A stretch of DNA of 64,000 nt from Desulfosporosinus sp. FKB (GTDB lineage Bacteria; Bacillota; Desulfitobacteriia; Desulfitobacteriales; Desulfitobacteriaceae): positions 26,010-90,009 of the forward strand of contig NZ_NADJ01000008.1 of assembly GCF_002196705.1 (NCBI RefSeq), written 5' to 3'. A program made the translations under genes and the position numbers. The notes below the pieces were generated by a model. That model was given only the letters and a program-made list of their open reading frames with translations, did no database searches and had not been told where the DNA came from. Positions 605 to 16,783 of the stretch are shown here, in pieces; position 1 is the stretch's first letter; each line of letters starts with the position of its first letter.

Positions 605-976
605 TTACTTTTTAGTAATTTTTTTTATCTCTTCTTCGACTTCTTGTGCTCCTTGAGTATAAAATTTTTCTTCATCTGGAGCCAATTCTTTTAGGAGTCT
701 TATAAATTCGCCGGCATGAACTCTTTCCTCATCAGCAATATCCGTTAAGACTTCGATGGCCAATTGATTATCTATGGATTCAGCCAGCTGCATGTATAGC
801 TGGATAGCTTCATATTCTGCAGAAATCATGAAGCGAATGGCTCTTATTAATTCTTGTTCGGATAGTTTGCAGTTTTTTGCTAGGCCGGAAAACGGATTTC
901 CGAAATCAGGCATAATGTCGACCGTTGCCAAAACTTTATAAAAGTCTGAAAAAGTTCTGTTTGCTTCCTGATTCAT
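605..976 (-). CDS. Ferritin-like / rubrerythrin-family di-iron protein
   Basis: A small four-helix di-iron carboxylate protein of the rubrerythrin/ferritin superfamily, probably for iron storage or peroxide detoxification in the cytoplasm. Metal-ligand motifs are visible: SAEYEAIQLY in one helix and DEERVHAGEF (ExxH) in the next. There is no rubredoxin CxxC domain. The acidic/basic tail ends in EEEIKKITKK. An alternative TTG start at 1045 would add 23 residues, but that stretch appears to be the end of the neighbouring IS607-type element, so ATG at 976 is preferred although its ribosome binding site is weak. Even the first few codons from 976 may come from the element. Some relatives are encapsulin cargo; no shell gene is visible here. 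Confidence 0.75.
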   Translation of the reverse strand: MNQEANRTFSDFYKVLATVDIMPDFGNPFSGLAKNCKLSEQELIRAIRFMISAEYEAIQLYMQLAESIDNQLAIEVLTDIADEERVHAGEFIRLLKELAPDEEKFYTQGAQEVEEEIKKITKK

Positions 977-2100
977 CGTATCCGATTTTGTCCGAAGACT
1001 ACTTTCGTTTGATATAACACTCCACAGGCTTAAATTCGGATGCAACGTATCCTACATATTGACAGTTGCTTTTAGGTGCTAGACTGCCAATTTATATCTC
1101 GAAAGATTGATGGAAGCATTGAAATCCCTATCTATCACTAAGCCACATTCACATCTATATATCCTGTCAGATAACTTCAAGTCTTGTTTTATAGTTCCAC
1201 AACAGGAACACAACTTACTTGATGGATACCACTTATCTGCTTCTGCAAACTCAATACCAAATCGTTCACATTTGTATTGAAGTTTCGACTTAAAGTCATA
1301 CAGTCTTTGCTTGGCTATAGCTTTAGATAGATGTCGATTTTTCATCATTCCCTTGATGTTCAAGGTGTTCAAGGTTTCCATAACCACTTTACAAGGTTTG
1401 GTTTTCACTATCGTATTTGTGGCTTGATGGATATGATTATTTCTGATTCCGTTTAACTTTCGATGTTGCATACGGATTTGGTTTTCGACGTTTATAATGT
1501 TGCTGGTTTTGACGAAACGGTTTCCCTCCTTATTCATTTCATATTTACGAGAAACTTTACGTTGCAACCTACGAAGCCGTTTCTCTAGCTTTTTAACACG
1601 TTGAGACTTATTGATATTTTTAAATGTCATTCCATTAGAGCATACTGCAAGTTCTTTAACACCAACGTCAATGCCTATTATTTCATCCGTCAATTGCTCT
1701 ATAATTTGTTCTTGCTCAATTCCTACACCGAGATACCAATACTTTCCGTCAAATGATACTCTAGGATTGGTGTGTTTTAAATCATTATCTGAGAGAAATT
1801 TTCCACCACTGGTATAATTCTTCTCTTGCTTGTTTAATGCCCAATTATAAGAAACTCTACAATAACCGATAGTCGTAGTCGTTCTCTTCAGTTGTAAGTT
1901 GCCCTTAATACCTAAGAAATGATTAAGTTGTTCTTGAGAGTAATAACGGTATCCACTGGGGGCAATGTTGAGGTTTTAGGGTATCGCTTTTGTTCCAGTT
2001 TCTTAATGTTTGCTCAGTCTTACCAATAAGTTTGGCAAATTCACCAATTGAATAATAGTTCAAGTCAATACACCTCTATTGGTAATGGTAAACCAATATA
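974..2100 (-). mobile_element. Decayed IS607-family element (approximate limits)
   Basis: Read on the minus strand, a MerR-like helix-turn-helix of a TnpA serine recombinase (from 2063) runs into a shortened TnpB (to 1079). On the left (2078-2097) ATTGGT and ACCAAT form a short inverted repeat before the tnpA start. On the right, 974-1045 contains the sequence TTTAAGCCTGTGGAG and ends in GAATCAGGAAGC, which resembles the conserved right-end/omega-RNA region downstream of tnpB genes as I recall it. The exact ends are inferred, not proven; no target duplication is expected for this family. Confidence 0.6.
1079..2063 (-). pseudogene. tnpA'-tnpB' fusion remnant of an IS607-type transposon
   Basis: Start TTG at 2063 follows AGAGGTG. 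The first about 38 codons read as an IS607 TnpA HTH (YYSIGEFAKLIGKTEQTL...). A run of five G on the + strand (1958-1962) breaks the frame: removing one base restores SGYRYYSQEQL and the start of the catalytic domain, IGYCRVS. Near 1849 the frame then jumps directly to TnpB sequence (YNWALN..., then FDGKYWYLGVGIE), so most of the recombinase and much of the TnpB N-terminus are deleted. The last 204 residues keep TnpB RuvC-I (GIDVGVKELAV), the zinc ribbon (CSCCG...CECG) and RuvC-III (DRDFNASINL). It cannot move by itself. Whether the truncated TnpB still has nuclease activity is doubtful. Confidence 0.85.
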
Positions 2101-4342: not shown

Positions 4343-5347
4343 TTAAAATTCCCAAGTCCAGACAAACCCGTCATCTTGTGATCCCTGGGTGATAGAGACG
4401 TGAATCCAACTGGAAGGAAATCTCTGAGTTCTATTTGGACGATATCCTTGGCTCGTTCCAGTACTTGAAGCTGAGTTTACAACATTGGTCGAGAATGATT
4501 CACCATCAGATCCAAGTTCTGAAGGAGCAATTAACACATCACCGCTTTGGGAAACGAGGGCAACAGGCTGTACGTTGCCAATGGATTTTAAGGATTGTCC
4601 ATTTACCATTGCAGAATGATAGGTGACCGATCCCATATTTGCTAACGGATATAATTGTCCATTCTGATTGGAAGGATCTTCACTAATCCACTCAGCCGAA
4701 GTTCCTATTCCCTGTGCATAATCTGAACTCAATGTTACAGGAGGAATTGTTTGACTTGGCGTCTCACCATTAATGGTAAAGGTTAACGTCCATGTTGAGC
4801 TTGAGCCTGTGGAGGGGGCTATACTGGCACTAATGGTGGAGCCAATTGGGACAGTCATGACGTTTTGGGCTGTCGAGGGCAATTCCTCCCAAAACACCTT
4901 AGCAACGGGCTGACCGTTATCAATTTCTTCAATTGTCCCCATTTGCAAAAGATCTGTAGAGGATACTCCCCCTAAACCAATCCACTGGGCCGCTACGGCA
5001 TCTGTTTGACTTGCACTAATAGTAGGAATCGTCCAGCTTCCGGAAACACTTGTATAACTCTCTCCGGTATCGGGAGTATTAATGTATCCTGCCCAATTCT
5101 CAGAGCCTTGGGTGTTTTCCGGAAGGGTAGTCGTAGTAGTCGTGGTATTGGAACTTTGTGGTTCTTGAAGTTGAGGAATTGGCATATGTTTGTGCTGGAA
5201 ATTTCTAAACATTTCGAAAGAAGACGCCAGCTTCTGATTTGTTGCAGTGGGAATTGGCATTCCATTAGTAAGAGAGCAGGCCCCCAATCCAACAAAGACA
5301 GCTAGAGCAAGAATTTGACTTTTAATTTTAATCGACTTAATTTTCAT
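4343..5347 (-). CDS. G1-family (eqolisin-like) glutamic peptidase lipoprotein
   Basis: A probable secreted acid endopeptidase anchored as a lipoprotein. Residues 1-24 form a signal with lipobox LGAC. A Pro/Ser/Thr-rich linker containing TTTTTTT follows to about residue 80. The peptidase G1 domain then runs from SENWAGYI to about residue 265 with VSGSWTIP, AAQWIGLGG, LLQMGT (candidate catalytic Gln) and SAEWISEDPS (candidate catalytic Glu). In eqolisins the Gln/Glu dyad cleaves at low pH. A strong site AGGAGGAGA precedes the ATG at 5347. Assignment rests on these motifs. It is transcribed divergently from a lipoprotein gene; a nutritional or cell-surface role in acid conditions is inference. 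Confidence 0.82.
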   Translation of the reverse strand: MKIKSIKIKSQILALAVFVGLGACSLTNGMPIPTATNQKLASSFEMFRNFQHKHMPIPQLQEPQSSNTTTTTTTLPENTQGSENWAGYINTPDTGESYTSVSGSWTIPTISASQTDAVAAQWIGLGGVSSTDLLQMGTIEEIDNGQPVAKVFWEELPSTAQNVMTVPIGSTISASIAPSTGSSSTWTLTFTINGETPSQTIPPVTLSSDYAQGIGTSAEWISEDPSNQNGQLYPLANMGSVTYHSAMVNGQSLKSIGNVQPVALVSQSGDVLIAPSELGSDGESFSTNVVNSASSTGTSQGYRPNRTQRFPSSWIHVSITQGSQDDGFVWTWEF

Positions 5348-7755: not shown

Positions 7756-8148
7756 TTATAATGAGTGTACTTGTCTGGTATTGGGTGAAATGTTGCAGCT
7801 TTTAGCATAACATTTGAGTTTGTGATCAATAGTTTTTAGGTTTTCTTTTAAATCTTCCATCTGTTTTAGGACTTCTTTTCGATGGTCAATAAACATTTGT
7901 CGGCGAATTTCCAGGGTCTTATCCCCTAAAAGGCACCATTCAATGTATTGCTTGATTTGTTTAATGGGCATTCCGGTGTTTTTCAAACAACAAATGAGCT
8001 TTATCCAATCAAGATCATCATCTGTAAATTCCCTATTTCCCGTTTTGCTTCGATCGACAAAGGGCAGAAGACCTTCTTTGTCATAATAGCGAATGGTGTG
8101 TGCAGTAAGATCAAATTTTTTTGCTACCTGGCTGATCGTATATCCCAT
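7756..8148 (-). CDS. MerR-family transcriptional regulator
   Basis: A 130-residue one-component regulator. The N-terminal winged HTH reads YTISQVAKKFDLTAHTIRYYDKEGLLP, then the wing and a coiled-coil dimerisation helix (about 80-112). The short C-terminus has CYAKSC, two cysteines four apart, but no obvious metal-binding loop of the MerR/CueR type. It is more like the AdhR/YfmP type, which often senses electrophiles or redox stress. The gene is 19 bp downstream of the DUF362 gene and presumably co-transcribed, and a MerR-type operator lies before that gene, so it most likely controls its own operon. The ligand is unknown. Confidence 0.92.
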   Translation of the reverse strand: MGYTISQVAKKFDLTAHTIRYYDKEGLLPFVDRSKTGNREFTDDDLDWIKLICCLKNTGMPIKQIKQYIEWCLLGDKTLEIRRQMFIDHRKEVLKQMEDLKENLKTIDHKLKCYAKSCNISPNTRQVHSL

Positions 8149-8167: not shown

Positions 8168-9274
8168 TTAGATTGTAATCAATTCATACGCCTTGCTGCC
8201 CAGACCTAGTTTTACTGCATGGTCTATACCTACTTTCCAGTCGGTGCTTGGATTAACGTCGGTAAAATGATCACTATGATTGTGGTCGCTTTTTTCGAGC
8301 AGACTTCCACTCATGACCGGCTGACGATTGACTGCGTCGGCGCAAGCTACATCGAGAGCAATCGGATCAAAGGAGGCAAACATCCCTACATTCGGAACAA
8401 TCGGAATATCGTTTTCGGCATGACAGTCGCAGAAAGGAGAAACATCAATAACTAAGCTGATGTGGAAATTTGGGCGATCATGGAGAACGGCCCAGGAATA
8501 TTCTGCCATTTTCTTATTCAAGATGTCATTAGATTCATCCCAAGCTGCCATAATCGCTCCAGTTGGGCAAACTCCAATACAACGACCACAGCCAACACAC
8601 TTATTATGATCGATAGACGCTTTATGATCAGCAACACTATTAGCACTATGAGCACAAATTTTTGTACACATACCGCAGCCAACGCACTGTTCTTGAGAAA
8701 CATGGGGTTTACCATTACTGTGCATCTCCATTTTACCTGCCCGTGAGCCGCATCCCATACCAATATTTTTTAGGGCGCCGCCAAAACCTGTAAGCTCATG
8801 GCCTTTAAAATGATTTAAAGAAATTATGATATCGGCATCCATAATAGCATGACCGATTTTCGCTTCTTTAACATATTCGCCGTTCTCAACAGGGACCAAA
8901 ACTTCATCAGTCCCTTTCAGGCCATCACCAATGAGAAGGTGACAGCCTGTAGAAAAAGGAGAAAAGCCGTTGACATAGGCAGATTCCAAATGTTCAAGAG
9001 CGTTTTTTCGTCCCCCTACATACAAGGTGTTACAATCTGTGAGAAACGGCTTTCCACCTAGATCTTTGACCATATCTACAACTGTTTTGGCAAAATTAGG
9101 GCGTAAATAGGCCAAATTCCCTGGCTCGCCAAAATGGATTTTAATGGCGACAAATTTTTTGTCAAAATCGATTTGCTGTATTCCGGCAGTTTTAATCAAA
9201 CGGTTTAGTTTTTGCTGTAAGTTTTCATTTATTGTTGTGTGTAAATTCGTAAAATAAACTTTTGACTTTTCCAT
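8168..9274 (-). CDS. DUF362 domain protein with 2[4Fe-4S] ferredoxin domain
   Basis: A 368-residue soluble iron-sulfur protein. A DUF362 domain covers most of the chain. A ferredoxin insert at about 185-245 carries CVGCGMCTKIC and CVGCGRCIGVCP, enough for two 4Fe-4S clusters; the first motif lacks the usual Pro after the last Cys. Further motifs are IKIHFGEPGN, NHFKGHELTGFGGALKNIGMG and DVSPFCDCH. Such proteins are common in anaerobes and are usually labelled electron-transfer proteins of unknown partner. Start ATG at 9274 has GGGGGAG in front. It is the first gene of a two-gene unit with merR, driven by a promoter with a MerR-type 19-bp spacer. Confidence 0.9.
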   Translation of the reverse strand: MEKSKVYFTNLHTTINENLQQKLNRLIKTAGIQQIDFDKKFVAIKIHFGEPGNLAYLRPNFAKTVVDMVKDLGGKPFLTDCNTLYVGGRKNALEHLESAYVNGFSPFSTGCHLLIGDGLKGTDEVLVPVENGEYVKEAKIGHAIMDADIIISLNHFKGHELTGFGGALKNIGMGCGSRAGKMEMHSNGKPHVSQEQCVGCGMCTKICAHSANSVADHKASIDHNKCVGCGRCIGVCPTGAIMAAWDESNDILNKKMAEYSWAVLHDRPNFHISLVIDVSPFCDCHAENDIPIVPNVGMFASFDPIALDVACADAVNRQPVMSGSLLEKSDHNHSDHFTDVNPSTDWKVGIDHAVKLGLGSKAYELITI

Positions 9275-9489: not shown

Positions 9490-10398
9490 CTAGCGATACT
9501 TTAAGGTTTTATGCTGCAGGTCTCGTCCTGTAATTGTATTTCTGAAAATCGTTCTGACGGCCTCAACGTAGTTTTCTGGATCTGTTAAGGAGGGACTATA
9601 GTGAGTGAGCCAGAGTTCGGCTGCGTGTCCTTCACGGGCGAGTAATGCGGCCTCAGAAAATGTCATATGCTTTTTTTGAATTGCTTTTTCCCGATCCTCT
9701 TCCTTGGCGTACATTCCTTCACAGATTAAAAGGTCTGAATTACTGATGAATGTTACTAAGTCTTCTGTTGGCCTGGTATCCGTACAGTAGCAAACTTTAA
9801 TACCTTTTCTTATGTCGCCCAAGACCATCTCTGGGCTAATTGTGTGATTTCCATAAGTTAAAGTAAAACCTTGCTGAAGAGACTTCCAATAATATACAGG
9901 AATATTTAGGGCTTCAGCCCTCGCGGCATTAAATTTTCTGCTCCGCGGCAGTTCGATAGAATAGGCCAAGCAGGCAAGGGAATGGTCGACAGGTAAACTT
10001 TTGATAAGAATTTGGTGAAGGGATGTTTCACCAACCTCAGCATCCGGCAATTCGATCAGTCTTAATTCGTAGGGCAGTAGAGGTGAAATGACTGTCAGGC
10101 CATCAACTATCTTTTTTAAGCCTGGAGGCCCGATTAAGGTTAGGACTTCTGATCTTCCGGAATTGGCAACCGTCAGAAGCAGCCCAGGTAATCCGGCTAT
10201 ATGGTCTGCATGATAATGAGTAAATAGGATGGCATCGATAGCCTTAAAACCCCATGCCGCCATTCTTAATGGGATTTGAGTTCCCTCGCCACAATCGACC
10301 AGAATCATTTTTCCGTTCCAGCGGATCAGAAGGGAAGACAGCCATCTGCCGGGAATCGGCAGCATGCCTCCTGTCCCCAATAAACAAACATCAAGCAT
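9490..10398 (-). CDS. rnz: Ribonuclease Z / metallo-beta-lactamase-fold protein
   Basis: A zinc endonuclease of the tRNase Z family, which trims the 3' trailer from tRNA precursors lacking encoded CCA. At 302 residues it matches the short (ElaC/RnZ-S) form. Visible motifs: LGTGGMLP, the histidine motif THYHADHIAGLPGLLL, PVDHS, CTDTRP (the metal-bridging Asp), HMTFSEAA and LWLTHYSP. The flexible arm typical of RNase Z is not clearly visible, so a related phosphodiesterase function remains possible. It follows mch with a 45-nt gap and is probably in the same transcript. Confidence 0.85.
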   Translation of the reverse strand: MLDVCLLGTGGMLPIPGRWLSSLLIRWNGKMILVDCGEGTQIPLRMAAWGFKAIDAILFTHYHADHIAGLPGLLLTVANSGRSEVLTLIGPPGLKKIVDGLTVISPLLPYELRLIELPDAEVGETSLHQILIKSLPVDHSLACLAYSIELPRSRKFNAARAEALNIPVYYWKSLQQGFTLTYGNHTISPEMVLGDIRKGIKVCYCTDTRPTEDLVTFISNSDLLICEGMYAKEEDREKAIQKKHMTFSEAALLAREGHAAELWLTHYSPSLTDPENYVEAVRTIFRNTITGRDLQHKTLKYR

Positions 10399-10443: not shown

Positions 10444-11418
10444 TTATGCTTTTATACAGAAAGATTGACGTAAGAGATTGATATTTACAGCTCCGGCATG
10501 AAAGGAATTGCCGCTGTTGATGTTGTTAAGCCAGACTTCAGCCGGACTAAATATTGTAGGATCAAGTTCGTAGAAATTTCCGTGACGTTCTATAAGTTCT
10601 TCAAATCGTTGAACATTATATTGGGATAAGGACGAAGGAATTTGTTTGACTATAGATTCTAGGGTCTTATCATCATCCTGGAGGTTAAAATAGACCGTTG
10701 CCCCGTAGAGAATCGCATCATTTGTACGCCCTAAAGCCCGAAGGTTATCTTTTGTTATGGGGGGGAGCGGGCAGGTACTCCAACCTGAAACAATCTTTCC
10801 TAAATCATAACCCAACAACCTTAGTTTTGATAGACCGGTTTCTAAGGCACGGGCGCTTACCTGAACAGAACCCACGAAGGAAGCCGTTGGTGCCGCTAAG
10901 ATATAGAGACTTGTCGGAGCGCAATTGCATACCTCCAATATTTGCTCAATTGCCTCATCAGTCGGAAGAGTGTCGCTTTCCAGGCAGATAATTGCAGTAT
11001 TTGATTCATCTCTATACCCTAGCGTTTCGAACAGACCACCCTCATGAACGATGGAGCGAATAGGCCCGGAACCTAAAACTACTTTTTCGCCATTCTTAAT
11101 CGGCCACCCAGCATACTGAGACGCTAAGCAAGCCCTTAGAGGATGATCAGTTATCACTTCCACGGACGGCCAGGGAAAATCTTTAAGATGAGACCAATGC
11201 AGTTCAACCCTAGCTAAACCGCCCAAGCACACTGAAGCGTATAAAACACCTGCCTCCCAACCGCCCAGTACCTGGATGCCGCAATCAATAATGGTTACGC
11301 CGTGACTTTTAGTCACATTAGTACCAAGTTGCTTATTTCTGGTGAGGAGCTGTTCTACGAAGGGGAAAGCTTGGCTATTAGGACTGAGTTCAGGATGCTG
11401 AATCAAGGGTAATGGCAT
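10444..11418 (-). CDS. mch: Methenyltetrahydromethanopterin cyclohydrolase
   Basis: Mch converts methenyl-H4MPT to formyl-H4MPT in C1 metabolism of methanogens, some sulfate-reducing archaea and methylotrophic bacteria. This 324-residue protein has the family length and conserved blocks: GIQVLGGWEAG, ACLASQYAGWPI, GSGPIRS, APTASFVGSVQVSAR, CPLPPITKDNLRALGRTNDA, ILYGATVYF, FYELDPTIFSPAEV, and LNNINSG near the end. It is cytosolic. Start ATG at 11418 follows AAAGGAAAGG. No other gene for methanopterin-linked C1 transfer is in the window, and organisms of this type normally use folate and FolD, so its substrate and role here are open. rnz follows. Confidence 0.88.
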   Translation of the reverse strand: MPLPLIQHPELSPNSQAFPFVEQLLTRNKQLGTNVTKSHGVTIIDCGIQVLGGWEAGVLYASVCLGGLARVELHWSHLKDFPWPSVEVITDHPLRACLASQYAGWPIKNGEKVVLGSGPIRSIVHEGGLFETLGYRDESNTAIICLESDTLPTDEAIEQILEVCNCAPTSLYILAAPTASFVGSVQVSARALETGLSKLRLLGYDLGKIVSGWSTCPLPPITKDNLRALGRTNDAILYGATVYFNLQDDDKTLESIVKQIPSSLSQYNVQRFEELIERHGNFYELDPTIFSPAEVWLNNINSGNSFHAGAVNINLLRQSFCIKA

Positions 11419-11545: not shown

Positions 11546-11700
11546 TATAATAGAGAAGCTAGCAGGGTTAGACTACTTGAACTATGAAGAAAAACCTATT
11601 ATAATTTAGTTCATAGCTAGTCTTCAATGTATTAGATTAGGTAGCAAAGAAGCTATAATTTCCGGTTATTTCCGGGATATATAACTTCTCTTTTTTGTTT
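11546..11700 (+). ncRNA. Candidate small RNA with own promoter and terminator
   Basis: TATAAT at 11546-11551 could be a -10 site. From about 11557 the transcript would hold a long imperfect hairpin (AGACTA with TAGTCT, and CTATGAA with TTCATAG, around an A/U-rich loop) and end in a strong terminator. Length would be about 140 nt. There is no start codon with a ribosome binding site. No known family was recognised. Confidence 0.35.
11649..11696 (+). terminator. Rho-independent terminator in a gene-free region
   Basis: AGAAGCTATA and TATAACTTCT pair with one mismatch. The enclosed TCCGG and CCGGGA extend the helix, and six T follow. No protein gene precedes it on this strand, which points to a short RNA. 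Confidence 0.8.
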
Positions 11701-11802: not shown

Positions 11803-12043
11803 AAAAGGTAAGTACATTAATAGTCGGTTTTGGCAGGATAAAATTTGGTTGCATTGCCACGGCATTTTTAAGATATAGATTTAAACTGGTCTAGGGATAT
11901 GTCTGTACTATTCACGAAAATCGGGAGGCAAGACGGCAATGCAGCTGTATTTTTGTGAATATAGACTGTCAAGTCAGGAAGAGGGGATGTAAAGACTTTA
12001 ATTTTGATAACGTAATCCAAGAATAATTAGTGGAGGAAAGAGC
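11803..12043 (+). promoter_or_regulatory. Structured 5' leader, riboswitch candidate
   Basis: TGCATTGCC (11850-11858) pairs perfectly with GGCAATGCA (11935-11943), enclosing about 76 nt. CTATTCACGAAAA (from 11908) can pair with TTTTTGTGAATATAG (from about 11950), and this second helix crosses the first, so the two form either a pseudoknot or a switch. I could not match it to the purine, cobalamin, TPP, FMN or c-di-GMP consensus. Downstream genes suggest a purine or nucleoside signal. Confidence 0.45.
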
Positions 12044-13180
12044 ATGAAATTATCTAAGAAAATCAGTATTTCTACGCTAGTCTTTGTCATGATCTTGACC
12101 CTGCTGCTTAGTGGCTGCTCGCAAACCAGTAAGCCGGCAGCGACTTCGGATCAAGGAAGCAGTCAGTCTGCAGGTCAAAAAATTAAAGTTGCCTTTGTAT
12201 ATGTCGGACCAGTAGGTGATTTCGGTTATACTTATGCTCAGGATCAAGGCCGAAAATACCTGGAATCTCATATGAAGAATGTTGAGACAACCTATGTTGA
12301 AAACATTCCGGAAACTGCTGACTGTGAACGTACTTTCACAGATCTTGCTCAAAAGGGTTACAATATTATTTTCGGTACCAGCTATGGCTACATGGATTAC
12401 ATGAAAGATGTATCTAAAAAATTCCCGAATGTCGTCTTCGAACATTGCAGCGGTTATAAAACAACAGACAATTTAGGCACATATTTCAATCGTGACTATC
12501 AAGCCCGCTATCTGACCGGTATGGTTGCCGGCAAATATACAAAGAGCAATATTCTCGGCTTCCTGGCACCGTTTGGTACCCCTGAGGTCATCCGTAATAT
12601 CGATGCCTTTACTCTTGGCGCCCAATCGGTAAATCCTAAAGTTCAAGTTAAAGTAGTCTGGACAAATTCATGGAACGATCCTGCAACAGAGAAAACGGCG
12701 GCCAATAGTTTGATTGATGCCGGCGCTGACGTTCTTGCTATGCATGTGGATTCGCCATCCTTTGCGCAAACAGCCCAGGATAGAGGTGTGCTGGCAATCG
12801 GCCACGATTCAGATATGTCGAAGTTTGCCCCTAATTCTATCCTCGTAGGTGACGTTTCCAATTGGGGCCCATACTTTGTTCAAGTAGTCAAAGATGTTAT
12901 GAACAAAACCTGGAAATCAAGTCAATACTTTGGCGGAATCAAAGATGGCGGTGTTATCGATATAACACCCTTTAGCTCCAAAGTCGATAAAGATTTCCAA
13001 GCAACTGTCACAGCGAAACGACAAGATATTATCGATGGTAAATTTGTTCCTTTCACAGGACCGGTTTACGATCAAAACGGTAACTTAAAGGTTAAAGACG
13101 GTGATAAAGCCACAGATGAGATGCTCCTTTCCATCAACTGGTTTGTCAAAGGCGTTGTGGGATCAATTCCCAAATCTTAA
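12044..13180 (+). CDS. BMP-family nucleoside-binding lipoprotein
   Basis: Substrate-binding protein of a PnrA/BmpA/NupN-type ABC transporter, which captures purine nucleosides outside the membrane. The signal has lipobox LLSGC (Cys at 25), followed by a Ser/Ala/Gln linker. The BMP domain begins at KIKVAFVYVGPVGDFGYT and includes GYNIIFGTSYGYMD, FGTPEVIRNIDAFTLGAQSVNP, DVLAMHVDSPSFAQTAQDRG and AIGHDSDMSKFAPNSIL. Start ATG has GTGGAGGAAAG in front. It heads the operon, and a strong hairpin separates it from the ATPase gene, which would allow higher expression of the binding protein. Nucleoside specificity is inferred from family and from the adenine deaminase downstream. Confidence 0.92.
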   Translation: MKLSKKISISTLVFVMILTLLLSGCSQTSKPAATSDQGSSQSAGQKIKVAFVYVGPVGDFGYTYAQDQGRKYLESHMKNVETTYVENIPETADCERTFTDLAQKGYNIIFGTSYGYMDYMKDVSKKFPNVVFEHCSGYKTTDNLGTYFNRDYQARYLTGMVAGKYTKSNILGFLAPFGTPEVIRNIDAFTLGAQSVNPKVQVKVVWTNSWNDPATEKTAANSLIDAGADVLAMHVDSPSFAQTAQDRGVLAIGHDSDMSKFAPNSILVGDVSNWGPYFVQVVKDVMNKTWKSSQYFGGIKDGGVIDITPFSSKVDKDFQATVTAKRQDIIDGKFVPFTGPVYDQNGNLKVKDGDKATDEMLLSINWFVKGVVGSIPKS

Positions 13181-13208
13181 CCGGCTAGAACAGAAGAATG
13201 ATGTTATC

Positions 13209-13239
13209 CGCAAACCGGCGAGTTTCTCGCCGGTTTGCG
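13209..13239 (+). terminator. Intercistronic hairpin after the binding-protein gene
   Basis: A perfect 14-bp stem (13209-13222 with 13226-13239) with a 3-nt TTT loop and no T-run after it. Such hairpins between a binding-protein gene and transporter genes usually stabilise the upstream mRNA or partly terminate transcription. Confidence 0.7.
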
Positions 13240-13262
13240 ATAATGTTGAAAGGGTGAGATCG

Positions 13263-14783
13263 ATGGGGAATACACCCATGGTGGAAATGCGCAAAATCAC
13301 AAAAGAGTTTCCGGGTATCCTTGCTAATGATCAAGTTTCACTGGTCGTTAACAAAGGCGAAATTCATGCTCTCTTGGGGGAAAATGGAGCGGGGAAGAGT
13401 ACGTTAATGAGCGTGCTCACTGGATTGTATCGGCCCGATGGGGGCGAAATATATATTGAAGGCAAGAAGGTTGAATTTTCTTCACCTAAGGATGCGGTCA
13501 ACAAGGGTATTGGCATGGTACATCAGCATTTTAAACTTGTTCAGCCCTTCACCGTCGCTGAAAATATTATGCTCAGCATTAAAGGGCTAAAACAAATATA
13601 CAACCTCAAAGAGATCGAAAGGCAAATTATTGAGCAATCGGAAGCTTTTGGGCTTTCTATTGATCCCAAGGCGAAAATCTGGCAGCTTTCGGTCGGTGAA
13701 CAGCAAAGGGTGGAAATTATAAAATTACTGCTTTTGGGTGCTAAATTTTTAATTCTTGATGAGCCAACGGCCGTATTGACACCTCAAGAAGCCAAGGCCC
13801 TCTATACTACCCTGCAAAAGATGGCCGCAAGCGGAAAAGCTATTGTCATTATCTCTCACAAAATGAACGAGGTTATGGAAAACACCGATTCTATCACTGT
13901 TCTCCGAGACGGGAGATCTATTGGGACTGTTCAAACGAAAACGACAAATGAAATAGAGCTTGCCAAAATGATGGTTGGCAGAAATATTTCCTCCACAACT
14001 GGGAAGACGTTGTCTGCCAAAACTGATATACTCATGACTTTAGCAAATGTTTCAGCCTTAGGCGACAATGGTTTATTAAAATTGAAAAATATTTCAATGG
14101 ATATATATAAAGGAGAAATCCTCGGCATAGCCGGTGTTGACGGCAACGGGCAGAAAGAACTGGCAGAAACGGTGGCAGGTCTGCGTTCTGCCAAACAAGG
14201 AACTATTGCTTTCTGCGGCAAGGATTGTACAAAGTCAGGGCGTAAAAAGCGAATTAACCTCGGTATTAGCTATGTACCGGAGGATCGTATGACTACCGGT
14301 CTCGTGACCGACCTTAACGCTTACGAAAATGTTGCGCTTAAAAGCTATCGCAAGTATCCGGGAGCCTTTATTTCCTGGGACAAAGTCAAACATGATTCTG
14401 AACAATTGATTGAGAAATTTGATGTTCGGTTGGCGAGTATGTCCAATCCCGTTAAAATGATGTCGGGAGGAAATATTCAGAAGCTCCTTCTGGCACGGGA
14501 AATCGATTCCAATCCTAAATTGATTATCGCTGTTTATCCCATGCGCGGTCTGGACATTGGTGCCACGGATTATGTAAGACGTTTGCTTATCGGAGAGAGT
14601 GAGAAGGGCAAGACTGTACTTCTTATCTCGGAAGACCTGGAAGACATCCTTTCCATGACAGACCGCATCATCGTTATGCACGGGGGAGAAATCATGGGTG
14701 TCGTTAAGCCGAACGAGACATCGCGTGAAGAAATCGGTCTGATGATGGCCGGCAAAAGAAAGGTAGGTCTTCATGAAGCATAA
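13263..14783 (+). CDS. ABC transporter ATPase, nucleoside (NupO-like), two NBDs
   Basis: Energises the BMP-type nucleoside importer at the inner face of the membrane. The 506 residues contain two nucleotide-binding domains. The first has Walker A GENGAGKST, signature LSVGEQQRVEII and Walker B LILDEPTAVLTP. The second has no standard Walker A (GVDGNGQKE), signature MSGGNIQKLLLA and LIIAVYPMRGLDIGA, as is normal for the sugar/nucleoside subfamily. The ATG at 13263 follows AAAGGGTGAG, and the open frame upstream overlaps the BMP gene and is not used. The gene overlaps the next permease by 11 bp. Confidence 0.93.
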   Translation: MGNTPMVEMRKITKEFPGILANDQVSLVVNKGEIHALLGENGAGKSTLMSVLTGLYRPDGGEIYIEGKKVEFSSPKDAVNKGIGMVHQHFKLVQPFTVAENIMLSIKGLKQIYNLKEIERQIIEQSEAFGLSIDPKAKIWQLSVGEQQRVEIIKLLLLGAKFLILDEPTAVLTPQEAKALYTTLQKMAASGKAIVIISHKMNEVMENTDSITVLRDGRSIGTVQTKTTNEIELAKMMVGRNISSTTGKTLSAKTDILMTLANVSALGDNGLLKLKNISMDIYKGEILGIAGVDGNGQKELAETVAGLRSAKQGTIAFCGKDCTKSGRKKRINLGISYVPEDRMTTGLVTDLNAYENVALKSYRKYPGAFISWDKVKHDSEQLIEKFDVRLASMSNPVKMMSGGNIQKLLLAREIDSNPKLIIAVYPMRGLDIGATDYVRRLLIGESEKGKTVLLISEDLEDILSMTDRIIVMHGGEIMGVVKPNETSREEIGLMMAGKRKVGLHEA

Positions 14784-15846
14784 ACTTTTAGGAAGTTGGG
14801 AGATAAAGAAAACAAATACAAGCTCTGGGTTAAAGAAGGTTGTCATCTCTGTAACTTCCATCATCCTGGGTTTAATCTTTGCGGGTCTTTTTGTGCTGCT
14901 TACCGGGAAAAACCCTTTGGAACTTTACACTGAGATAGTGCAATCCTCTGTAGGTTCTATCTATGGCTTAAGTGAAACCATCGTAGAAATGATTCCTCTT
15001 GCCTTGTGCTCCTTGGGGGTCTCTTTGGCTTTCCGTATGCAATTATGGAACATTGGAGCGGAAGGCCAATTTTATATGGGAGCTTTTGGGGCAACCTATT
15101 TTGCTCTCTTCTTTTCCGGTTTGCCTAAACTGGTACTTCTGCCCCTGATGTTACTCGCAGGGTTAATTTGTGGGGGACTTTGGGCTTTGATTCCTGCCCT
15201 GCCGAAGGCCTTTTGGAATGTTAATGAAACGATCAGTTCTCTTTTACTTAACTATGTGGCTTACCTTTGGATTGCCTACCTTGTATATGGCCCATGGAAG
15301 GATCCGAAAGGAAATAACTTTCCCCTGACAAAGCAGTTTTCAGATAACGGAACAATTCCTGTTTTCGGGAACACTCGCATCAGCTATGCGCTTTTTTTAA
15401 TGGCTATTATTGCAGTTATTCTATTTTTTATTCTTAAGTATTCTAAATGGGGTTATGAGATACGTGTCAGTGGTTCCAGCCGCAAAGCCGCTGATTATGC
15501 AGGTATGAGCTATATTAAAAATGTCTTAATGGTTATGTTTTTGAGCGGGGCCATATCAGGAATTGCTGGGATGGCTGAGGTATCAGGCGTTCTCCACCGC
15601 TTACAGCAGACTATTTCTCCGGGCTACGGTTATACCGCCATACTTATTGCCCTGCTGGCCCGTCTGAATCCCATCAGTATCCTCCTTGTATCCTTTTTAA
15701 TGGGCGGATTGCTTGTAGGAGGCTATAGTTTGCAGACCTCCGGTTTTCCCTCAAGCATGGTTTCTATGTTTCAAGGCTCGATACTATTCTTCGTACTGGC
15801 AGGCGAAATTTTTAATAATTACCGATTGGTAAGAAAGAAGGCATGA
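14773..15846 (+). CDS. ABC transporter permease, nucleoside (NupP-like)
   Basis: One of two membrane subunits of the nucleoside importer. At 357 residues it has about eight to ten hydrophobic segments and the BPD_transp_2 (branched-chain-type) features MQLWNIGAEGQFYMGAFGA, NETISSLLLNYVAY, and SRKAADYAGMSYIKN (cytoplasmic coupling helix). It begins in the end of the ATPase gene (11-bp overlap), with AAAGGTAGGTC as ribosome binding site. Only 4 bp separate it from the second permease. Family and partner are clear from operon structure; exact substrate is inferred. Confidence 0.93.
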   Translation: MKHKLLGSWEIKKTNTSSGLKKVVISVTSIILGLIFAGLFVLLTGKNPLELYTEIVQSSVGSIYGLSETIVEMIPLALCSLGVSLAFRMQLWNIGAEGQFYMGAFGATYFALFFSGLPKLVLLPLMLLAGLICGGLWALIPALPKAFWNVNETISSLLLNYVAYLWIAYLVYGPWKDPKGNNFPLTKQFSDNGTIPVFGNTRISYALFLMAIIAVILFFILKYSKWGYEIRVSGSSRKAADYAGMSYIKNVLMVMFLSGAISGIAGMAEVSGVLHRLQQTISPGYGYTAILIALLARLNPISILLVSFLMGGLLVGGYSLQTSGFPSSMVSMFQGSILFFVLAGEIFNNYRLVRKKA

Positions 15847-15850
15847 TGGT

Positions 15851-16783
15851 ATGGATCTGAATTATTTAATCGCCATCCTTGCCTCCGGCGTTGTTGCAGG
15901 CACTCCGATTTTATATGCTTCTCTTGGTGAAGTAATCACAGAGCGTGCCGGCATTTTGAATCTGGGGGTTGAAGGCATGATGCTCGTGGGGGCAGTAAGT
16001 GCTTTTTACGTGGGAACGTTTTCCCAGAATAAATGGCTGGGTTTACTGGTAGCTATCGTCGCCGGCGGACTTATGGCCCTAATTCATGCGGTAATAACCA
16101 TTGTTTTTCGGGCCAATCAGGTGGCGAGCGGTTTAGCTTTGACGATTTTTGGCACAGGCTTATCGGCTTACTTAGGTCGTACGTTAGTCGGAATTCCGCC
16201 GACGTCAACGTTTAAAGCTGTTCCTCTTCCGGGTCTCTCTCAAATTCCTATCATCGGCAAAATTCTATTCAATCAGGATCTTATGGTTTACCTGAGCGTG
16301 ATTCTTGTTGTTGTTCTTTGGTTTGTCTTTTATATAACAAAGGCAGGCCTTCTTCTTAGGGCAGCCGGGGAAAATCCGTCGGCTGTTGATGCCTTGGGAC
16401 ACAATATTTTTTTGGTTCGCTATGCTGCAGTCATAGGGGGAGGCATGTTTGCAGGCGCCGGGGGCGCTTATCTATCCTTAGCTTATTCTCCTTCTTGGGT
16501 TGAAAACATGTCGGCAGGCCGTGGCTGGATCGCCGTCGCCCTTGTTATTTTTGCCGTCTGGGATCCTGCTCGCGCTTTGTTGGGAGCCTGGCTGTTTGGG
16601 GTCATTGCTTCACTGGGGTTACATCTTCAGGCTTTAGGCGTGATGATTCCGTCCTATTTTTTGCAAATGCTTCCTTATATTTTTACGTTTATTGTTTTGG
16701 TTATTACAACGAGGGAGACGAAAACCAGGCGTTCAGGAACACCGGCTGCTCTTGGAATTCCATACTCGCGTGAGGAACGTTAG
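15851..16783 (+). CDS. ABC transporter permease, nucleoside (NupQ-like)
   Basis: Second membrane subunit of the importer, 310 residues, strongly hydrophobic with about eight to nine membrane segments. It shows the conserved LGEVITERAGILNLGVEGMM near the N-terminus and AAGENPSAVDALGHNIFLVRYAAV as the coupling region, features of the YufQ/NupQ type. The final 20 residues are basic and cytoplasmic (TRETKTRRSG). It follows its sister permease with a 4-bp gap, and adenine deaminase comes after a 161-nt spacer with two hairpins. Confidence 0.93.
   Translation: MDLNYLIAILASGVVAGTPILYASLGEVITERAGILNLGVEGMMLVGAVSAFYVGTFSQNKWLGLLVAIVAGGLMALIHAVITIVFRANQVASGLALTIFGTGLSAYLGRTLVGIPPTSTFKAVPLPGLSQIPIIGKILFNQDLMVYLSVILVVVLWFVFYITKAGLLLRAAGENPSAVDALGHNIFLVRYAAVIGGGMFAGAGGAYLSLAYSPSWVENMSAGRGWIAVALVIFAVWDPARALLGAWLFGVIASLGLHLQALGVMIPSYFLQMLPYIFTFIVLVITTRETKTRRSGTPAALGIPYSREER

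Follow-up and report, generated by a model that had tools for sequence, protein, structure and literature searches.

Introduction

Mch, the methanopterin cyclohydrolase, is widely used in genome analyses and surveys as a marker of H4MPT-linked C1 metabolism, and its archaeal representatives yield an N5-formyl product. The reference enzymes are those of methanogens and methylotrophs (1qlm, 4gvq, 4fio). In the Bacillota, Mch is also encoded in H4MPT C1 operons, together with fhcABCD, mtdB-like and mptN-like genes, both in the genus Desulfosporosinus (genomes G013, G015 and G033) and in other families. One review cautions that heterotrophs which are not methylotrophs also have fae1 and mch (PMC3763247). 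The literature searched (titles and abstracts, with subscription journals mostly outside) contained no description of a lone mch gene in the Bacillota, and there is nothing on Mch in the accessible part of PMC11451228.

Here, we analyze such a gene in a stretch of 64,000 nucleotides from Desulfosporosinus sp. FKB (hereafter called the window), which is part of a 5.1-Mb genome (G000) that is rated 100% complete and contains a single Mch. The encoded protein resembles the Mch of methanogens and methylotrophs in its full-length sequence family, its fold and an Arg/Glu pair, and it has the same invariant core as Mch from the Bacillota operons. However, it is specified by a stand-alone gene, and no partner making or using H4MPT was found in G000. 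Whereas operon mch lies between the genes for FhcC and an MptN-like ligase, lone mch is found in varying places with varying neighbours. A further group of Bacillota MCH proteins, termed type B in this study, also occurs in genomes without RFAP synthase but forms a separate clade, carries Gln at position 147 and mostly also at position 194, and is encoded among genes for importers, FolB, amidohydrolases and dehydrogenases. Finally, the folate enzymes FolD, FchA/FTCD_C and 5-FCL belong to unrelated families; they would share the substrate pool proposed below with the lone Mch, and all three are present in G000.

Results

A full-length Mch with a conserved core

The gene at positions 10444-11418 (minus strand) encodes a protein of 324 amino acids and starts with an ATG that has AGGAAAGGAA closely upstream. 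Its product matches the Pfam family MCH (PF02289) with 362 bits (cut-off 25; E 3e-108) over profile positions 3-311 of 311 and the NCBIfam model TIGR03120 with 334.4 bits (cut-off 228.8). The phmmer matches are four solved Mch sequences from methanogens and Archaeoglobus, with a value of 5.4e-81 for the Methanopyrus enzyme. An AlphaFold model (mean pLDDT 90.4) aligns with the latter (1qlm) with a Z score of 46.9 over 311 residues at 41% identity, and the best four rows of the PDB comparison are all Mch (Z 44-47), the best unrelated chain reaching a Z score of 4.9. A chance open reading frame or gene fragment is thus ruled out by the full-length family match and the Mch fold, and the protein genuinely belongs to the Mch family, as judged from its sequence and predicted fold and in line with the sequence-only reading. 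TIGR03120 is also passed by a type-B protein (L101:7564-8523; 335 bits), while another one just fails (223 bits), so that a match to this model is no proof of H4MPT use.

The putative catalytic pair Arg190 and Glu193, encoded at 10840..10851 on the minus strand, aligns in the phmmer comparison with Arg183 and Glu186 of Archaeoglobus Mch, which we take to be the catalytic residues; the solved chains 4gvq and 4gvr differ at Glu186 (E to Q). Both residues are invariant over all lone, operon and type-B rows. As a reference, we used the 54 columns that are invariant in 12 operon and 2 archaeal rows, leaving out the long-branch operon protein L111, which retains 44 of them. The window protein keeps 49 of these columns, compared with 45-52 in the lone rows and 35-42 in the type-B rows, and 35 columns do not vary among lone copies, operon copies (at least 92%) and archaeal sequences. 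The window protein also has C64, E147 and T194, all of which are altered in type-B copies, with E147 replaced by Gln in 17 of 17 and T194 in 14 of 17 proteins. Residues fixed in the lone clade comprise C166 (25/25) as well as F18, P106, H125, G127 and L192 (each in at least 24/25), and S197 is another lone-only residue. In the window protein, YNV occupies the place of the DYG stretch found in operon Mch. No column in the alignment unites lone and type-B Mch against operon Mch. Judged by these residues, the window protein has the predicted catalytic core of a genuine Mch, altered at a few positions. Since the pocket residues mostly resemble those of true Mch, the sequence gives no positive sign for the use of folate.

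H4MPT, methanofuran and folate genes in the genome

RFAP synthase catalyzes the committed step of H4MPT synthesis. Searches of G000 for this enzyme (control positive in four archaea), for Fae and FTR and for the methanofuran enzyme 4-HFC-P synthase (control archaea positive in each case) yielded no match, nor did a search for Mpt_N, the N-terminal domain of MtdB, for which three relatives were positive but no control genome. These five families made up the marker set. As none of the five was matched, a full H4MPT gene set elsewhere in G000 is rejected, and any H4MPT in this organism is left unexplained by known genes. Thus, the window protein has the family and fold of Mch, yet the genome gave no sign that the cofactor contained in its name is made in the organism. 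Nor is the gene a member of an H4MPT C1 operon, as its surroundings comprise genes for tRNase Z, a DUF362 protein, a MerR regulator and a Bmp ABC transporter.

The sequence-only reading had described mch as lone and apart from C1 genes, and had proposed a genome-wide search that included fae, mtdB, RFAP synthase and fhc genes. Both descriptions hold: G000 has one Mch, no C1 gene among the neighbours and no FTR, and none of these four (FTR representing fhc and Mpt_N representing mtdB) was matched. As to a partial H4MPT-like pathway in the lineage, none of the five markers was matched in G000, but H4MPT C1 operons, as judged by FTR, exist in four Desulfosporosinus genomes.

FolD and one FTCD_C (FchA-type) protein are encoded next to each other on contig C26 of G000, and a second FTCD_C protein and 5-FCL are present as well. 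Each of the three families is found in 44 of the 45 family genomes. Mch as a stand-in for an absent folate cyclohydrolase or an absent 5-FCL is therefore rejected. Because these enzymes occur in nearly all genomes, with or without Mch, no simple replacement is seen, and 5-FCL and Mch show no see-saw pattern across the 45 genomes. With FolD, FTCD_C and 5-FCL already in place, the need for a recruitment of Mch to folate in G000 is weakened.

Distribution of lone and operon copies

The family sample comprised 45 genomes, 29 of them from the genus Desulfosporosinus. Mch matches were obtained in 25 genomes, 24 from the genus and one from another genus (G007), and an intact lone copy is present in 22 of the 29 genus genomes and in G007. 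The resulting 25 lone copies comprise 24 in the genus, with two intact copies each in G025 and G032, and the one in G007. No intact lone copy was obtained from the other seven genus genomes (G008, G015, G021, G022, G024, G026 and G030), not all of which are complete; G015 and G022 contain a fragment each. Losses and breakages of this kind show that the gene is dispensable. The gene is thus lone in G000 but no single oddity, as it belongs to one clade kept through 22 of 29 genus genomes.

FTR is found in only four of the 45 genomes (G012, G013, G015 and G033), so that 20 of the 23 genomes with an intact lone Mch have no FTR. RFAP synthase exceeds its cut-off in G013, G015, G033 and G040 (4/45), and Mpt_N is matched in G013, G015 and G033 (3/45). 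G012 (completeness 99, 970 contigs) has FTR and 4HFCP synthase but no match to RFAP synthase or Mpt_N. Full H4MPT operons thus exist in the genus, in a minority of genomes. G013 has two of them, one of which (L031) is ordered 4HFCP synthase, CitG-like protein, MptN-like ligase, Mch, FhcC, FTR/FhcD, FhcA, FhcB, FwdD-like protein, a 412-aa protein and MtdB-like protein. Their occurrence in four Desulfosporosinus genomes, as judged by FTR, places a source of the lone gene close at hand. In G012, G013 and G033, operon-type and lone Mch are found together, which argues that the lone protein is more than a substitute for a lost operon copy.

Two side observations concern the H4MPT genes of the family. 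The fhcB gene of the above operon (L031:13154-14467, minus strand) contains one in-frame TGA in the sequence context DNP(A/S)SY*HGPGV, as do those of L035, L108 and L109 (4/4 checked); its position is presumably the FwdB active site, where it resembles a selenocysteine codon. Separately, 4HFCP synthase and RFAP synthase were matched in G040 (78% complete, 490 contigs), another genome of this family, but Mch and FTR were not.

Phylogeny and selection

The Mch tree comprised 57 rows, namely the 25 lone copies, 13 operon and 17 type-B proteins and two archaeal enzymes, with proteins shorter than 310 aa left out. For the outside-family rows, 398 Bacillota genomes were sampled; 26 had a match, three of them in the family, and 17 of the other 23 were read, the remainder being G103, G142, G204, G229, G266 and G327, while further copies (e.g. 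in G254) were not all included. Gene calls at the loci correspond to the longest open reading frame.

The phylogeny that the sequence-only reading had suggested groups all 25 lone copies in one clade (support 99/95) that is nested among the operon (type A) rows. It stands next to four closely related operon proteins of Desulfosporosinus, although this join is not firm (support 92/79). The nearest relatives of the window protein outside the lone clade are the operon Mch of L031, L032 and L034, with 57-58% identity. Type-B proteins form a separate clade (support 100/100), and a grouping of the window protein with them is rejected (p-AU 2.4e-5).

In 11 of 13 lone pairs, dN/dS ranges from 0.077 to 0.211, the other two being saturated, and three operon pairs give values of 0.061-0.158. 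The lone Mch is thus under purifying selection. For the window and L055 (G009), the identities are 74.7% for Mch (dS 1.73), 75.2% for tRNase Z (dS 1.58), 89.1% for DUF362 (dS 1.95) and 98.1% for the Bmp protein (dS 0.52), where dS values near or above 1.5 approach saturation. Mch diverges in step with tRNase Z and DUF362, which fits vertical descent in place rather than recent import.

Type-B clusters in other Bacillota

Outside the family, we read 20 regions from 17 genomes, with Pfam assignments made on one member of each cluster. Eight genomes have an H4MPT operon and ten have MCH in type-B clusters, with G278 containing both. The 12 type-B loci (L101-L107, L110 and L117-L120) often contain paired MCH paralogues. 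They further include genes for a Bmp-type substrate-binding protein (6 of 12), FMN_red (6), FolB (4), E1-alpha/E1-beta/E2 dehydrogenase components (5), Amidohydro_1 (5) and a shorter MCH paralogue (5), along with GntR or LacI regulators, ECF-type importers, SDR, AFOR and Fe-ADH. The shorter paralogue (240-271 aa) adjoins a full MCH, as at L101:14169-14891 (Pfam, 78.6 bits) and L107:9897-10703 (TIGR03120, 56 bits, below cut-off).

RFAP synthase exceeds its cut-off in 8/8 operon genomes but in 0/9 genomes with type-B copies only; among the six unread genomes, it does so only in G266. MCH proteins without H4MPT synthesis therefore exist in a second, separate clade. From their gene content, we infer that type-B clusters may serve the breakdown of pterins or related heterocycles, possibly by an undescribed pathway. 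The Bmp importer near the window gene could be thought to mark the latter as a type-B member. This assignment is rejected by the tree topology as well as by E147 and T194, and the window Bmp protein is only 24.5-33.4% identical to its type-B counterparts.

Neighbourhood and intergenic region

Downstream of mch, at a distance of 45 bp, follows a gene for ribonuclease Z (tRNase Z; 9490-10398, minus strand; NF000801, 364.8 bits, cut-off 252), and beyond it lie genes for a DUF362 and 4Fe-4S ferredoxin protein (8168..9274, minus strand) and a MerR-family regulator (7756..8148, minus strand), both assigned by profile match. On the other side, a divergent ABC-transporter run on the plus strand is led by a gene for a Bmp/PnrA-like substrate-binding protein (12044..13180; profile match), followed by those for the ATPase (13101-14783) and the permeases (14773-15846 and 15851-16783).

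The pairing of mch with the tRNase Z gene, which had been highlighted previously, is real as an adjacency but carries little meaning, since it recurs in only 3 of 25 lone loci (window, L041 and L055); a functional pair is thus rejected. Elsewhere, lone mch follows a response-regulator gene (10/25 loci, mostly with an HD protein gene in between), precedes a PHO4 phosphate transporter gene (3/25) or lies close after acetolactate synthase genes (2/25; L045 and L049), with the remaining copies in other settings. No constant partner was found among the 25 neighbourhoods, and, ordinary genes aside, no neighbour lies nearby in the same orientation in two or more lone sub-clades. An amidohydrolase near some lone copies was considered as a second FhcA and rejected, as its FhcA matches are only local (roughly 60-80 residues).

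The intergenic region separating mch from the divergent bmp operon includes a 135-bp block (11566-11700) that is 80-89% identical in the trio formed by the window, L041 and L055. This block contains back-to-back promoter-like sites, among them TTGAAG-18-TATAAT facing mch (11598..11627, minus strand), which recurs with the same hexamers and spacing in L055 and in a weaker form in L041; as the scan returned 6 sites against 6.0 expected, only its conservation supports this candidate promoter. On the plus strand, the block includes a hairpin followed by a T-run, about 350 bp before bmp, which is a candidate for a short RNA or an attenuator. Upstream of bmp, at about 11850-11950, the trio also shares copies of GCATTGCC and GGCAATGC roughly 80 bp apart, which may represent an operator pair or a folded leader. 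Rfam gave nothing at gathering score for the window mch/bmp intergenic region. Over 20 lone loci (short versions), it returned four c-di-AMP elements, within a few hundred bases of mch at L014, L015, L018 and L021, and one cobalamin element; at L014, where the order was examined, the element lies downstream of mch, and a riboswitch on mch was rejected. Elsewhere in the window, we noted a RAGATH-18 RNA (965-1028, minus strand; 73.3 bits, gathering score 44.9) and a protein of the Peptidase A4 family (4343-5347, minus strand; E 5.7e-24), a family that is mostly fungal.

Discussion

Our results leave a conserved cyclohydrolase in a genome in which five H4MPT and methanofuran markers are unmatched. 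For this genome, they favour a recruitment to folate or another pterin, the second of the two possibilities raised by the sequence-only reading, and on balance we lean towards the view that the lone Mch has been retained to act on some tetrahydropterin that is not H4MPT. Its gene probably goes back to an H4MPT/methanofuran C1 operon like those still present in some Desulfosporosinus, whose mch would have become a stand-alone gene once in the family. From then on it would have been inherited vertically, with purifying selection maintaining it although the cofactor pathway is absent. The ancestral chemistry has most likely been retained, such that Arg190 and Glu193 would activate a water molecule and this water would open the N5,N10-methenyl (imidazolinium) ring of a tetrahydropterin to give an N5-formyl product, or the reverse.

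Given that no route to H4MPT is apparent in G000, some other methenyl-tetrahydropterin should serve as substrate, and methenyl-THF, the only such compound that G000 is expected to make, becomes the first candidate. Given that archaeal Mch yields an N5-formyl product, the product from folate would be 5-formyl-THF, and the lone Mch may thus interconvert methenyl-THF and 5-formyl-THF, thereby buffering or storing the folate one-carbon pool. We put forward folate in particular only as a tentative and somewhat doubtful proposal. To our knowledge, all Mch enzymes tested are specific for H4MPT, which counts against it, and the lack of an operon partner pointing to a pathway speaks against a role with folate and with other tetrahydropterins alike.

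An enzyme that still acts on H4MPT, taken up from methanogens or made by genes that the models miss, is supported by the 49 of 54 operon/archaeal columns kept by the window protein, including C64, E147 and T194, by the three lone loci with a Bmp-type ABC importer divergent to mch, and by the three genomes with lone and operon Mch together. We nevertheless judge this unlikely, because without RFAP synthase, FTR, Mpt_N and Fae no enzyme was found that supplies or uses the formyl or methenyl carrier. Moreover, the importer is absent from most lone loci, is not close to its type-B counterparts and stands beside a gene that is presumably adenine-deaminase-like, which suggests purines. We consider it similarly improbable that the lone Mch has become a ring-opening hydrolase that degrades pterins, purines or other N-heterocycles, the role apparently acquired by type-B MCH. 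The latter do provide a precedent, as MCH is found without RFAP synthase in all nine genomes with type-B copies only, in clusters with importers, FolB, amidohydrolases, FMN reductase and GntR/LacI regulators; some lone copies lie near genes for C-N hydrolases (agmatine-deiminase family, carbon-nitrogen hydrolase, hydantoinase), and the residues fixed specifically in the lone clade point the same way. However, the window protein is far from type B in the tree, no column joins the two groups against operon Mch, and the neighbours of the lone gene are inconstant.

The least likely of the rival explanations, and a very improbable one, is that the lone Mch is a functionless relic of a lost H4MPT operon in slow decay. 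Its absence or breakage in 7 of 29 genus genomes, the fragments in G022 and G015 and the missing DYG stretch of the window protein are in line with such decay. It is the dN/dS values (0.08-0.21) and the spread of intact copies over 22 of 29 genomes that place this explanation last; the 35 columns invariant over lone, operon and archaeal rows and the duplicate intact copies in G025 and G032 also oppose it.

Taken together, MCH may have left C1 metabolism twice in the Bacillota. One departure would have led to the stand-alone tetrahydropterin cyclohydrolase of Desulfosporosinus, which possibly makes or uses 5-formyl-folate, the other to a catabolic hydrolase of pterins or heterocycles in type-B clusters. 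We see even chances for this scenario, which would make 'mch' a misleading methanopterin marker in the phylum. In the organism studied here, Mch alone is no evidence of H4MPT. Since most of the genus retains an mch gene that is under purifying selection yet unaccompanied by the pathway, automated annotation will infer methanopterin metabolism in sulfate reducers in which no synthesis of the cofactor has been found. The 23 genomes with intact lone copies, three of which also have an operon copy, represent a natural comparison series. Should folate or a different pterin prove to be its substrate, the lone Mch would add a second substrate to a cyclohydrolase so far regarded as restricted to one cofactor.
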